Positions 2,192 through 8,478 of a DNA stretch of 9,447 nucleotides are shown piece by piece. The notes under the pieces were generated by a model, which ran no database searches, was not told where the DNA came from, and saw only the letters and a list, made by a program, of their open reading frames with translations. The stretch is from Pseudomonadota bacterium. GTDB lineage: Bacteria > Myxococcota > UBA9042 > PHBI01. A program made the position numbers and the translations under genes. The DNA is taken from positions 1 through 9,447 of the forward strand of contig SYAK01000307.1 of NCBI GenBank assembly GCA_005788935.1, in the 5' to 3' direction. Within the stretch, counting starts at the first letter, position 1, and each line of letters begins with the position of its first letter.

Positions 2192-2298
2192 GATCCCTCT
2201 CGCTTGCGTTGGCGTGCCTTGAAGTCTCCGAGGGGGCCCACGGCGCACGCGCCGATGGCCGTCATTCAGGCCCGCCTTTCCTGCCCTCTGGGGGCGGA

Positions 2299-2322
2299 GG
2301 TGTCAAGGCCCGGCCTGTCACC
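2299..2322. promoter_or_regulatory. Imperfect inverted repeat between divergent genes (candidate operator)
   Basis: GGTGTCAAGGCC, a central C, then GGCCTGTCACC: the arms match apart from one inserted base and a substitution, with a perfect AGGCC-C-GGCCT core at 2306-2316. It lies in the 215-base region shared by the acidic-protein gene (minus) and the thioesterase gene (plus). On the minus strand it contains a perfect TTGACA (2306 down to 2301), although no good -10 box follows at 16-18 bases. A regulator-binding site is plausible but unproven. Confidence 0.35.
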
Positions 2323-2346
2323 ATCATGCGTACACGCCCCACGGAT

Positions 2347-2375
2347 TTGACCTCGGCGTCACCCGTGCGCATCGT
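2347..2375 (+). promoter_or_regulatory. Candidate promoter for the thioesterase gene
   Basis: TTGACC (2347-2352), a 17-base spacer and CATCGT (2370-2375) lie about 30 bases before the ATG at 2407. The -35 box is 5/6 to consensus, but the -10 box only 3/6, so this is a weak call made on position and spacing. Confidence 0.3.
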
Positions 2376-2406
2376 CTCGCGGCACGCCGCACCCCCTGGA
2401 GTCCGC

Positions 2407-2901
2407 ATGGAGCTCGACGCCCTCCTCGAAGGCTACCCGGTCGTCATCTCGCTCCCCGTCTCCTGGGGCGACATGGACGCCTTTCAGCATGTCAACAGCA
2501 CGCGATTCTTCCGCTATTTCGAAGAGGCGCGCATCGCGTGGTTCGAGCGCACGGGGCTCTTTGACCTCGGGCGCGACGTCTTCGCCGACGGCGGGCGCGG
2601 GGTCGGTCCTGTCGTCGCCCACACCGGTTGCCGTTTCCATGCACCGCTGCGTTACCCTGACGAGGTCCGCATCGGGGCGAAGGTCGTGCGGGTCGGGGTG
2701 CATTCGTTCGAGATGGAGTACCGCGTCGTGTCGGTCGCGCTGCACGCGCTCGCGGCCTCGGGGACAGCGGTCATCGTGGCCTTCGACTTCGCCGCCGAGA
2801 CCAAGACGCCGCTGCCCGAGAGCTGGCGGCGTGCGCTCTCCCACGTCGAGAACTGCGTCATCGGCGGGGACGCGCCCGATGACGGTGCCGACAAGGGCTG
2901 A
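2407..2901 (+). CDS. Hotdog-fold acyl-CoA thioesterase (4HBT family)
   Basis: A 164-residue protein, typical of single-domain 4-hydroxybenzoyl-CoA thioesterase/YbgC-like enzymes, which hydrolyse acyl-CoA or acyl-ACP thioesters in the cytoplasm. The N-terminal signature W-G-D-M-D-A-F-Q-H-V-N-S (residues 20-31), followed by R-F-F-R-Y-F-E-E-A-R, is the family hallmark; Asp24 aligns with the catalytic Asp of the Pseudomonas 4-hydroxybenzoyl-CoA thioesterase. A second strand-rich part (about 86-131) supplies the beta sheet. The ATG at 2407 has GGAG (2398-2401) five bases upstream and starts the family domain directly; earlier in-frame starts add low-complexity sequence. The substrate cannot be told from sequence. 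It is divergent from the acidic-protein gene and ends 24 bases before the convergent NTAQ1-like gene. Confidence 0.9.
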   Translation: MELDALLEGYPVVISLPVSWGDMDAFQHVNSTRFFRYFEEARIAWFERTGLFDLGRDVFADGGRGVGPVVAHTGCRFHAPLRYPDEVRIGAKVVRVGVHSFEMEYRVVSVALHALAASGTAVIVAFDFAAETKTPLPESWRRALSHVENCVIGGDAPDDGADKG

Positions 2902-2925: not shown

Positions 2926-3480
2926 TCAGCCCGGGCATGTCGCGAAACGGCTCAGCTGATTGAGGTCGCAGGTGAACCCGCGCGACGGATCCTCGTGGGT
3001 GACGTCCCACCAGGCTGGCAGCGTGTGGGTCGGGGCCCCGAGGCGGCCGGGACGCGGCGGGGCCCAGGGCGGGGGAGGTGCCAGCCAGGCCCCGTCAGGG
3101 CCCCGCATGTGCGACCGATCACTCGTGAAATCATCGAGATACCAAGCGGCGGGTGCCACCCGGAATCGCGGGCGCAGGTCGTCGGGAACCGCGTCGCCGC
3201 GCGGGAAGGTCGCGTGGCACCACGCAGCAAAGGGCAAGCTCTCACCCGCAGTGCAGTCCGGGTCGTCGATCGTGGCGCCAGCCGCCGAGACGGTCAGCGA
3301 CACGACGTGATAGTCCCAGATGACCGCCTCGCCCGGGGCCGCGGCGCGCTGCGACCAGCAGGCGACCGAGCGGTGCGCGTTGCTGATGAAGACGACGTGA
3401 CGCCCCGCGAGGTCTGGTGCGAGCGCGCGGACACGTTGCCAGATGTTTTCTTCGCACCACATCGCCGCATAGGGCATCAT
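2926..3480 (-). CDS. Protein N-terminal glutamine amidohydrolase (NTAQ1-like)
   Basis: A 184-residue homologue of eukaryotic NTAQ1 (human about 205), which deamidates N-terminal Gln of proteins to Glu, a tertiary step of the N-degron pathway. Matches are dense: W-C-E-E-N-I-W (residues 8-14) holds the nucleophile Cys9; V-F-I-S-N (30-34) is conserved; V-I-W-D-Y-H-V-V (53-60) holds His58; I-D-D-P-D (71-75) places Asp73 at human Asp97; F-R-V-A-P-A (106-111) and S-D-R-S-H-M with P-P-P-P-W (120-139) follow; D-L-N-Q-L-S-R-F (172-179) resembles the human T-L-S-E-F-T-H-R-F end. Human catalytic residues Cys28, His81 and Asp97 are thus all present. The ATG at 3480 has GGAAAG about 6-7 bases upstream; longer starts run into the divergent lipoprotein gene. 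No signal peptide, so cytoplasmic. The family call is strong; activity in this organism is inferred. Confidence 0.88.
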   Translation of the reverse strand: MMPYAAMWCEENIWQRVRALAPDLAGRHVVFISNAHRSVACWSQRAAAPGEAVIWDYHVVSLTVSAAGATIDDPDCTAGESLPFAAWCHATFPRGDAVPDDLRPRFRVAPAAWYLDDFTSDRSHMRGPDGAWLAPPPPWAPPRPGRLGAPTHTLPAWWDVTHEDPSRGFTCDLNQLSRFATCPG

Positions 3481-3526
3481 GAACGCTTTCCGGGGTTGTG
3501 CCCCGCCCTCCCGAGGTGTCTCCACG

Positions 3527-4726
3527 ATGCATCCTGCACCCGCCCGCCGCCACGGCGCCAGCCTGTCTTTTCTCGTCATCGCGCTCGGCACGGCTGGCTG
3601 CGGCGAAGACTCCGCAACGCCCGCTGGCGCAGCCGACACGATCGCGTCAACTGACACCCTCACGGCTCAGCGTGACGGGTCGACCCCGGCCGACGCGGCG
3701 CCACCGGCCGCGGACACCGGCCCAGCCCCGGATGACACGACGGGTGACGCGGCGCCCGACGTCGGCGCGGGCTTCGACGTGGTCGTGCCCGCGGACGACG
3801 CCACCTCGGGGAGTGAGGACACAGCAGCACCCGCGGTCGATGAAGACGGCGACGGCGCGGCGGACGACGGCGACAACTGCCTCGCGCTCTTCAACCCGAA
3901 TCAGGCCGACGCGGACCTCGACGGCATCGGGGACGCCTGTGACCCGACGAACGACGACAGCGACGGTGACCGCATCCCGACCGCCGCCGACCCCTTCCCC
4001 GACGACGCGAACCGCCCGGGCATGGCGGCACCGAATACCGTCTACGCGCACACAGCCACCGAGCTGTTCCGGATGGACGTCAAGACCATGACGCTCGTGT
4101 CGGTCGCCCGCTTCCGATTCCCGTCCGGGACGCAGAGCGCCAACATGACCGACCTCGCGATCGACCGGCACGGCGTGCTCGGGGGCGTGAGCTTCAACGA
4201 CATCTTCCTCATTCACCCGAACACGGCCGAGTGCTGGCGCATCGGGGCCCTCCCGCGCTCGTTCAACGGCCTGAGCTACATCCCGGCCGCCGCGTCGGGG
4301 CAGGCGGCGGACATGCTCGTCGGGATCTCGCTCGAGGGCGAGTGGTGGCGGGTCGACCTTGGCACAGGCAGTGCCGCGCCGACCGCGACGACGACACTCA
4401 TCGGGAGCTACGGGGGCGGCTGGAGGTCGAGCGGCGACGTCTTCTCGATCGTCGGCGTCGGGACCTTCGCCGCGGTCGACAACGGGGGCGTCGACCAGCT
4501 CGCCGAGGTCAACCCGGCCAACGGCAGCATCGTGCGGCTCCTCGGCGAGCTCGGCGGGAAGACCGCGGTCTATGGCCTCGCGGGCTGGTCGGGGCGCGTC
4601 TTCGCGTTCGACGAGTCGGGGGAAATCATGGCGCTCGATGCGACGACTGGCGCCATCACGTCCCGCACGCGGACGGTGCACGCGTGGTGGGGGGCTGGCG
4701 TCCGCACCATCATCGACGAGGACTGA
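3527..4726 (+). CDS. Lipoprotein with thrombospondin type 3-like calcium-binding repeats
   Basis: A 399-residue predicted lipoprotein. The ATG at 3527 has GAGGTG (3513-3518) eight bases upstream and starts a basic, then hydrophobic signal (residues 6-24) ending in T-A-G-C with Cys25. Residues 26-104 are a disordered Ala/Asp/Thr/Pro linker. Residues 105-160 hold TSP3-type D-x-D-x-D-G repeats: D-E-D-G-D-G, D-N-C, N-P-N-Q-A-D-A-D-L-D-G-I-G-D-A-C-D, then D-S-D-G-D. These are known calcium ligands, with Cys118 and Cys138 able to form the usual disulfide. Residues 168-399 are beta-rich with repeated V-x-x-V/A-D and G-x-x-x-x-L-D-x-x-T-G motifs, suggesting a small beta-propeller like those of large myxobacterial surface lipoproteins. 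It starts 46 bases from the divergent NTAQ1-like gene and heads a three-gene operon. The partner or ligand is unknown. Confidence 0.88.
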   Translation: MHPAPARRHGASLSFLVIALGTAGCGEDSATPAGAADTIASTDTLTAQRDGSTPADAAPPAADTGPAPDDTTGDAAPDVGAGFDVVVPADDATSGSEDTAAPAVDEDGDGAADDGDNCLALFNPNQADADLDGIGDACDPTNDDSDGDRIPTAADPFPDDANRPGMAAPNTVYAHTATELFRMDVKTMTLVSVARFRFPSGTQSANMTDLAIDRHGVLGGVSFNDIFLIHPNTAECWRIGALPRSFNGLSYIPAAASGQAADMLVGISLEGEWWRVDLGTGSAAPTATTTLIGSYGGGWRSSGDVFSIVGVGTFAAVDNGGVDQLAEVNPANGSIVRLLGELGGKTAVYGLAGWSGRVFAFDESGEIMALDATTGAITSRTRTVHAWWGAGVRTIIDED

Positions 4727-6735: not shown

Positions 6736-7458
6736 ATGGGACGTGCATTCGAAAACCGCAAGATGAGCATGTTCGCGCGCTGGGACCGCATGGCCAAGGC
6801 CTTCGCCCGCGTCGCGAAGGACATCACCATCGCTGTCAAGGCCTCGGGCCCGAACCCCGAGTCGAACTCGGCGCTGCGCCGCGCGATCCAGAACGGCCGC
6901 GCCGCCAACATGCCGCGCGACCGCATCGAGGGTGCCATCAAGCGGGCGCTCGGCCCGGACACCGCCGATTACCAGGAGCTCATCTACGAGGGGTACGCGC
7001 CGCATGGTGTGGCCCTCGTCGTCGAGACCGCGACCGACAACCCGACGCGCACCGTCGCCAACGTCCGCATGCACTTCAACAAGGGCGGCGGTAACCTCGG
7101 GGCGGCTGGCAGCGTGGCCTTCATGTTCCGCCGCCGCGGCGTCTTCAAGCTGAAGGCCGCTGGCCTCGATCTCGACACGCTCGAGCTCGAGCTCATCGAC
7201 CACGGGCTCGAGGACCTCGAGCGGGCGACCGACGACGCGGACGAGGCGATCGTCATCGCGCGCTGTGCCTTCAACGACTTCGGGGCGTTGCAAAACGCCA
7301 TCGAGGCGCGCGGGCTGACCCCCGTCTCGGCCGAGTCGGCCTATATCGCCGAGAGCGAGGTGACGCTCGATGACGCGCAGATGAACGACGTCCTCGCCCT
7401 CATCGACCGCCTCGAGCAGGACGAGGACGTCCAGCGAGTCTACCACAACGTCGCGTAA
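6736..7458 (+). CDS. YebC/PmpR family protein (TACO1-like)
   Basis: A 240-residue protein of the YebC/PmpR/TACO1 family. Members were described as DNA-binding transcriptional regulators and, more recently, as ribosome-associated factors that help translate proline-rich sequences. The N-terminus is M-G-R-A-F-E-N-R-K, not the usual M-A-G-H-S-K-W-A-N-I; this variant is familiar from Bacteroidetes and some deltaproteobacteria. Family signatures follow: [12 protein letters not shown] (51-62), [19 protein letters not shown] (84-102), N-K-G-G-G-N-L-G (115-122), G-S-V-A-F-M-F (125-131), and a third domain to the end. ATG 6736 has GAGGGA (6723-6728) seven bases upstream; the long in-frame extension to 6187 overlaps the previous gene and is rejected. 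It is cytoplasmic and probably transcribed separately, as 113 bases separate it from the operon. Confidence 0.95.
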
Positions 7459-7504: not shown

Positions 7505-8401
7505 TCAGATGTCGAGGACGCCCGCGCGCTGCAGGACGACGAGGGCCGCGCAGATCTCGAGCCGTGACAGCTTCGAGCTCTCGAACATCTTGCGGATCGA
7601 CAGCTTGCGGTCGACGAGGGTGAGCACCTCGGCGATCTTGAGGTTGTTCAGGAAGACGCGGTGCATCGTGTTCTCGGGGCGCAGCTCGCGACGCTTCGGG
7701 ACGCGCCCGAAGGACTTCAGGGCTGGCTCGTAGAGCCCGAGGAGATGGGCCTCGTTCGAGCGAACGAAGTCGGCGACGTGGTCCTCGACGCGCGCGAGGA
7801 CGAGGAGCCGCTCGATCGAGATGAAGGCCGCGTCCCAGTCGTTGAGCGCGCTGAGCTGCACGACGTCGTCGTAGAGCAGGAAGGTTGCGGGGTCGCGGCC
7901 CGCGATCGGCTCGACGAGCGTCGGCGCGGGTGTGGCGGCGCGGACGTCTGGACGTGCGCGGATGATGGTCTCGGACTCGGCGAAGGCGAGCGCGGCCGAA
8001 TCAAGGGCCGGTGCGTCGTCGGGCGGAGGGGCGGGAAGTTCGTCGGTCCCTGTCGGGGGAAGCCTAGGCCGCTCCGCGCTGCGCGTCGTCGAGCCCGGGC
8101 TGCCTGGCGTCTGCTGTAACGCCGCCCCCGGGGGCACTGGCGGCGGGGCGCGGACGATGCCCGCGTCGCGCGGACGGGCCGCGACACCCGTCCGGGGGCG
8201 GGCGCGGTTGACGAGCAGGTCGACGAGGACGTCGAGGGCCTCGAGCAACGCCACATCCTCGGACGCGAGCGTCGGCTCGGACGCGAGCACCGCCTCACGT
8301 CGGGCGCGCGCGTCGAGCTCGCGCAGCCGCGGCCCGAGCAGGGCCTCGATCTGCGCCACCGGATCGGCGGGATGTGCGGGCGCGTGCCCCGACGCTGCCA
8401 T
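7505..8401 (-). CDS. Unknown protein with winged-helix-like C-terminus
   Basis: A 298-residue protein that I do not recognise. It has three parts: an N-terminal helical segment (about 10-66, with R-L-R-E-L-D-A-R-A-R-R-E), a Pro/Ala/Thr-rich disordered linker (about 67-170), and a C-terminal region (about 171-298). The latter starts with helices around F-L-L-Y-D-D-V-V-Q-L and ends in a wHTH-like stretch: L-N-N-L-K-I-A-E-V-L-T-L-V-D, S-I-R-K-M-F-E-S-S-K-L-S-R-L-E-I, then A-L-V-V-L-Q-R-A-G-V-L-D-I. Such endings resemble winged-helix tails of myxobacterial DUF4388/PATAN-type proteins. ATG 8401 with CTGGAG about 8 bases upstream is preferred; a GTG at 8443, with AGGA upstream, would add 14 residues, but several of those codons have atypical A/T third bases. 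It has no signal peptide. It lies downstream of argD on the same strand and converges with yebC. Confidence 0.8.
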   Translation of the reverse strand: MAASGHAPAHPADPVAQIEALLGPRLRELDARARREAVLASEPTLASEDVALLEALDVLVDLLVNRARPRTGVAARPRDAGIVRAPPPVPPGAALQQTPGSPGSTTRSAERPRLPPTGTDELPAPPPDDAPALDSAALAFAESETIIRARPDVRAATPAPTLVEPIAGRDPATFLLYDDVVQLSALNDWDAAFISIERLLVLARVEDHVADFVRSNEAHLLGLYEPALKSFGRVPKRRELRPENTMHRVFLNNLKIAEVLTLVDRKLSIRKMFESSKLSRLEICAALVVLQRAGVLDI

Positions 8402-8478
8402 GCCTTCGTCTCCAGGTCCGACCAGCGGGAGGCCGACCGTCACCCCTGATTCCTACCGCGACAGACGCGCGCGGGCAA

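Follow-up and report, generated by a model that had tools for sequence, protein, structure and literature searches.

The question raised by this locus is whether a bacterium can convert an N-terminal glutamine to glutamate and, if so, whether that glutamate is passed to the bacterial N-degron pathway. The locus encodes a homologue of NTAQ1 and lies in a 9,447-nt stretch of DNA that was analysed at its full length (the window). The favoured reading, to which a probability of about 0.6 is assigned, is that the protein is an N-terminal Gln-to-Glu amidase whose product feeds Bpt and ClpS in those bacteria where Bpt exists. As many carriers of the gene also have the next enzymes, some bacteria may begin the marking of proteins for degradation with NTAQ1, a first step that has not been described. 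We infer both the amidase activity and the flow of its product into Bpt and ClpS from sequence comparisons and a structural model.

An NTAQ1-family protein with an intact catalytic triad

The protein had originally been described as a bacterial NTAQ1 homologue with its catalytic triad intact, and both parts of that description were borne out. PF09764 covers residues 4-176 (profile 1-180 of 184) with an E-value of 1.3e-35 and a score of 123.1 bits (cut-off 27), which places the family identity far beyond chance; the sequence adds a new member to this known family. The best phmmer match among PDB sequences was human NTAQ1 (4w79, E 4.9e-23). A structure predicted from an alignment containing 26 relatives had a mean pLDDT of 95.6 and a pTM of 0.91, and all 17 of its matches at E <= 0.001 in a fold search of the PDB were human NTAQ1 (TMq 0.86-0.89).

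In the alignment with the human enzyme, Cys28, His81 and Asp97 correspond to C9, H58 and D73 of the window protein (Table 1). The window protein shares with human and animal NTAQ1 the whole domain, the fold (TM 0.86-0.89), the Cys-His-Asp triad, the VIWDYH strand, the DRSHM motif and the Pro-rich segment. All motifs cited in the original prediction are present. It differs in length (184 aa, against about 205 aa) and at human Tyr111, a contact of Asp97, which is replaced by Trp87.

Whether bacterial copies as a rule lack the triad was examined in an alignment of 201 rows, comprising the query, 80 genomic loci and the best 120 of 366 protein homologues. C9, H58 and D73 were retained in 201/201 rows, although the invariance of Cys and His in the 80 loci is partly built in, because motifs containing these residues belonged to the patterns with which the loci were found; the Cys was not so used for the 121 protein rows, and Asp73 was in none of the search patterns.

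Table 1. Features of the NTAQ1 locus and its immediate neighbours, in window coordinates
Feature	Position	Strand	Remarks
NTAQ1-family gene	2926..3480	minus	184 aa; ATG at 3480; TGA stop ending at 2926
Candidate ribosome-binding site GGAAAG	3486..3491	minus	5 bases upstream of the NTAQ1 ATG
C9 codon (human nucleophile Cys28)	3454..3456	minus	From alignment; 201/201 rows, partly built in by search patterns
Codons 53-58, VIWDYH, including predicted catalytic H58 (human His81)	3307..3324	minus	Identical to human residues 76-81 in the alignment
D73 codon (human Asp97)	3262..3264	minus	From alignment; D in 201/201 rows
Codons 121-125, DRSHM, family motif	3106..3120	minus	R122, H124 and M125 in 201/201 rows
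Thioesterase-like (4HBT_2) neighbour, convergent	2278..2901	plus	PF13279, E 2.7e-23; outside the system
Probable lipoprotein, divergent neighbour	3479..4726	plus	Thrombospondin type 3-like repeat, PF02412, E 1.6e-4, below cut-off; outside the system

The structural report on human NTAQ1 describes residues 76-80 as holding the substrate N-terminus: Asp79 forms a bond with the first residue's backbone and Tyr80 with its amino group, and Trp78 packs against this residue; the chemistry proposed there is attack by the Cys on the Gln amide, giving Glu as product (PMC4214742). By analogy, the V-I-W-D-Y strand of the window protein would grip the free N-terminus of a polypeptide and C9, assisted by H58 and D73, would attack the side-chain amide of its first Gln, so that ammonia would be released and an N-terminal Glu left. 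The sequence and the structural model together make it very probable that the window protein acts as an N-terminal glutamine amidase.

The next matches in the fold search were bacterial protein-glutaminases (E 4.1e-3 and 3.5e-2; TMq 0.37-0.40), which resemble the window protein in a distant papain-like fold and in the deamidation of glutamine predicted for it. Protein-glutaminases act on side chains inside proteins, and their place directly after human NTAQ1 raises the possibility that the fold serves another kind of glutamine deamidation here, for example of internal protein Gln. This is very improbable, given the weakness of the fold matches and the identity of the N-terminus-holding strand to that of the human enzyme.

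The gene and its surroundings

The NTAQ1 reading frame has a GC content of 0.681/0.605/0.822 at the three codon positions. The gene stands alone in the window: the thioesterase-like gene converges on it and the probable lipoprotein gene, which starts at 3479 or later, diverges from it. The remaining genes include those for ribosome recycling factor, a methyltransferase, a PF14907 protein, YebC and a class-III aminotransferase, and no N-degron pathway gene was found among the neighbours of NTAQ1 in the window. The YebC protein matches metagenomic proteins at 68-95% identity, whereas its named matches, at about 64-67%, are scattered over Eiseniibacteriota, Thermoanaerobaculia, Myxococcales, Deltaproteobacteria and further groups.

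Other features of the window were recorded separately. In NCBIfam the probable lipoprotein weakly matches MtsC (E 9.5e-10, far short of the model cut-off). At 1889-2191 on the minus strand lies an open reading frame of about 100 aa that consists largely of Asp and Glu after its start (MLLHETPWENRNIFTLGRED); a longer frame from a GTG at 2248 is also open, and the region contains overlapping tandem repeats of 15 to 39 bases. A 312-aa open reading frame at 7508-8443 (minus strand) had no Pfam match at E <= 0.01 and no NCBIfam match.

Distribution and origin of bacterial NTAQ1

A protein search returned 366 homologues at E <= 1e-3, among them a close relative (P0002) with 96% identity to the window protein. 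A scan of the GTDB genome collection found 176 loci encoding NTAQ1 relatives, of which 80 were retained for the locus-level analyses. Judged by their titles, these include Myxococcota, Planctomycetota, Spirochaetota, Lentisphaeria and Melainabacteria/Obscuribacterales, together with Gammaproteobacteria (Thiohalocapsa, Halochromatium) and genomes of Acidobacteriota type (Sulfidibacter, Thermoanaerobaculia). Many carriers are metagenome-assembled genomes, but the gene is also present in isolates (Polyangium fumosum, Plesiocystis pacifica, Halochromatium salexigens and H. glycolicum) and in the complete genomes of Minicystis rosea and Sulfidibacter corallicola, and contamination therefore does not explain the spread. 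The automatic label 'protein N-terminal glutamine amidohydrolase' already stands on two public records (P0069, P0073). A literature search by title and abstract, its scope leaving subscription papers mostly outside, returned nothing on bacterial NTAQ1.

A tree was built from 67 rows, 64 from the bacterial side and three from vertebrates. The window protein joins six metagenomic proteins (P0002-P0007) with support of 100/99, and the deeper branching of this clade among the remaining rows is poorly supported. The branch that parts the bacterial rows from the three vertebrate rows also has support of 100/99, and the bacterial rows have diverged among themselves as deeply as from the vertebrates.

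These relationships bear on the alternative, raised in the original prediction, that the gene came from a eukaryote and took on a changed role. The idea draws on the fact that eukaryotes are where this family is best known (PMC4214742). Eukaryotes were sampled with the human segment as query; of its 1981 matches 120 were listed, and the named entries among these were animals. The nearest relatives of the window protein among the matches listed are bacterial or metagenomic, and the 64 bacterial-side rows are deeply diverged and set apart from the vertebrate ones. With eukaryotes represented by three vertebrates only, a recent transfer into the window lineage is unlikely on the sequence evidence, and an acquisition of this kind combined with a change of role is scarcely credible.

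Partner genes in NTAQ1-bearing genomes

The enzymes that would act after an amidase were sought in 50 NTAQ1-bearing genomes, which come from 50 of the 80 retained loci and include four of Polyangium. The marker for Bpt/ATE was PF04377, the domain at the C-terminus of both Bpt and ATE1. PF04377 was found in 35/50 genomes, ClpS in 47/50 and Aat in 48/50. The same searches of 14 control genomes found PF04377 in one, ClpS in five and Aat in four. Every one of the 35 carriers of PF04377 had ClpS (35/35), and PF04377, Aat and ClpS occurred together in 34. NTAN1 (PF14736) was over the cut-off in none of the 50 genomes; weak matches occurred in a single one of them (G013, best E 1.4e-4).

PF04377 was unmatched in 15/50 genomes, including the complete Sulfidibacter genome (L059/G032), which has NTAQ1, Aat and ClpS without a Bpt match. 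Both ClpS and Aat were matched in 12 of these 15. One carrier (G043) had no match to Bpt, Aat or ClpS, and in another (G034) a divergent Aat-like protein was the sole match of the three.

Physical linkage was not found. A tblastn search with 13 Aat, Bpt and ClpS queries gave no match in the 80 loci and the window, many of the loci having short flanks. Clustering of the open reading frames of the same loci and the window revealed no family at a fixed position besides NTAQ1, the exceptions being close relatives and antisense frames that overlap. Co-directional neighbours exist at 58 of the loci; 49 such genes, taken from 46 of them, gave 48 Pfam families, and among the 25 families listed none occurred in more than three members.

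The only proximity to a pathway gene was seen in G095 (L085), where NTAQ1 (6892-7458) and Aat (10551-11165) lie about 3.2 kb apart on the minus strand; plus-strand reading frames lie between them, and the two are not joined in an operon.

Co-occurrence against the phylum background

The association of NTAQ1 with PF04377 was compared with its background within two phyla, in genomes of unreported completeness and by statistics that ignore kinship within phyla: in Planctomycetota (149 genomes), NTAQ1 was found in 7, PF04377 in 40 and both in 7, so that PF04377 occurs in 7/7 genomes with NTAQ1 against 33/142 without (Fisher p 6.6e-5). The seven planctomycetal NTAQ1 proteins are 26-43% identical pairwise, save for one pair at 93%; without the chosen centre and with one member of the 93% pair dropped, the count was 5/5 (p 9.4e-4). 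Aat was present in 6/7 planctomycetal genomes with NTAQ1 and in 56/142 without (p 0.021).

Myxococcota, counted in the same way, gave a different result. Of 140 genomes, 18 had NTAQ1, 51 had PF04377 and 6 had both (6/18 against 45/122, p 1.0). When the window protein was used to search 377 genomes, NTAQ1 was found in 51, PF04377 in 146 and both in 23, or 23/51 with NTAQ1 against 123/326 without (p 0.35). Aat was present in 18/18 of the NTAQ1-bearing genomes in the smaller set and in 103/122 of the others (p 0.13). The association is thus strong in Planctomycetota and absent in Myxococcota. Some Myxococcota, such as G064, G078 and G133, have two PF04377 proteins each, often one strong and one divergent.

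On the NTAQ1 tree, the presence of PF04377 required 10 changes against a shuffled mean of 13.1, and 18/500 shuffles were as low, which amounts to weak clustering. The eight Myxococcota NTAQ1 proteins that best match the window protein (of the 377 genomes; 41-52% identity) come from G343, G002, G391, G004, G434, G095, G453 and G007, among which G095 alone has PF04377, in a weak and divergent form (E 4.3e-17). The presence of Bpt in the organism from which the window derives is accordingly put below one half, because PF04377 occurs in one of its eight nearest sampled Myxococcota and weakly there.

Several observations speak against the Bpt route: PF04377 is unmatched in 15/50 carriers, Myxococcota show no association, and no linkage of NTAQ1 to aat, bpt or clpS was found in the 80 loci and the window. 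With the complete genome that has NTAQ1, Aat and ClpS and no Bpt match, they would be explained if the protein were an N-terminal Gln amidase working outside the N-degron pathway, alongside an incidental Bpt. Such an enzyme might block pyroglutamate closure, or open Gln-peptides to glutamyl aminopeptidases in peptide recycling. The strong co-occurrence with PF04377 in Planctomycetota argues against this role, as does the frequency of Aat (48/50) and ClpS (47/50) in carriers, yet Aat is also frequent in Myxococcota without NTAQ1 (103/122). A role outside the pathway is considered rather unlikely.

A putative glutamine branch of the bacterial N-degron pathway

In Vibrio vulnificus, Bpt is reported to attach Leu to an N-terminal Asp or Glu, which thereby becomes destabilising, and ClpS to recognise N-termini that are bulky and hydrophobic (PMC3692480). 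In the favoured reading, the N-terminal Glu newly formed by NTAQ1 would receive Leu from Bpt in Bpt-bearing bacteria, ClpS would hand the Leu-Glu protein to ClpAP, and Gln would be a tertiary destabilising residue. Each link of the series Gln, Glu, Leu-Glu, ClpS is known separately, and it is by analogy that they are joined here.

The proposal can be set beside two known systems. The V. vulnificus pathway (Aat, Bpt, ClpS and ClpAP) has the same components that accompany NTAQ1 in 34/50 genomes, namely Aat, Bpt and ClpS; its description, in the available part of the source, covers primary and secondary destabilising residues and mentions no amidase and no tertiary residue (PMC3692480). The eukaryotic Arg/N-degron pathway (NTAN1/NTAQ1, ATE1 and UBR ligases) has the same order of an amidase followed by a transferase of the ATE/Bpt family. 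It differs in its use of NTAN1, which was over the cut-off in 0/50 bacterial genomes, and in its recogniser, UBR, for which ClpS is the expected bacterial counterpart. The bacterial host is without a ubiquitin system, so any reading of the product would fall to Bpt/ClpS.

The Gln branch put forward in the original prediction, which would give the bacterial N-degron pathway a new form, is partly supported. The partner genes (PF04377 in 35/50 genomes, with Aat and ClpS in 34/50) and the planctomycetal co-occurrence (7/7 against 33/142) speak for it, the latter supporting it well, whereas Myxococcota (23/51 against 123/326) leave it unsupported and 15/50 carriers are without PF04377. A more ambitious version is offered tentatively, at somewhat less than even odds: a three-tier hierarchy in some bacteria, with tertiary Gln (NTAQ1), secondary Glu (Bpt) and primary Leu (ClpS-ClpAP), built on an ancient bacterial amidase, with an unrecognised Glu enzyme or recogniser in the carriers that lack Bpt.

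If the favoured reading is true, the logic of Gln, Glu and conjugation, taught as eukaryotic, would also be bacterial, and the bacterial N-degron pathway, described with two tiers in the available part of PMC3692480, would gain an amidase tier that is a source of substrates for Bpt. The purpose of bacterial Asp/Glu conjugation would then be testable in cultured Polyangium, Minicystis, Plesiocystis and Halochromatium.

NTAQ1 carriers without Bpt

The carriers that lack Bpt raise a sharp question as to the fate of the N-terminal Glu. One conceivable answer is that another transferase takes the new Glu in these lineages, for example an Aat with an altered choice of acceptor. There is a model for such a change in Plasmodium ATEL1, an Aat relative that accepts Asp and Glu, although our literature search returned nothing that paired 'ATEL1' with 'Plasmodium'. 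Two full Aats were found in 4/15 Bpt-less NTAQ1 genomes (G008, G013, G015 and G036) against 1/35 of those with Bpt, and in two Spirochaetota proteins, L094 (G036) and L096 (G034), the equivalents of E156 and Q188 are lost. We take E156, D186 and Q188 (E. coli numbering) to be residues of the Aat pocket.

The pocket residues were compared in 79 Aat sequences. E156, D186 and Q188 are kept in 24/26 Aats from Bpt-less NTAQ1 genomes (21 genomes), and E156 is present in 39/39 Aats of Bpt-bearing carriers and 14/14 of Myxococcota without NTAQ1. Of the 12 Bpt-less NTAQ1 genomes among the 140 Myxococcota, two full Aats occur in G152 alone, and fragments in G002. With the usual residues kept in 24 of the 26 Aats, the sequences do not support a general switch of this enzyme, and an Aat with a changed acceptor was mostly rejected as a general substitute for Bpt, the two Spirochaetota paralogues being different. 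As an explanation for Bpt-less lineages, an alternative transferase is improbable.

Two groups of Aat proteins were noted in their own right. The full-length pairs of G008, G013 and G015 (L088-L093) have the usual pocket residues, in genomes with NTAQ1 and no PF04377 match, and the divergent Aat-like proteins L094 and L096 likewise come from host genomes that have NTAQ1 and no match to PF04377.
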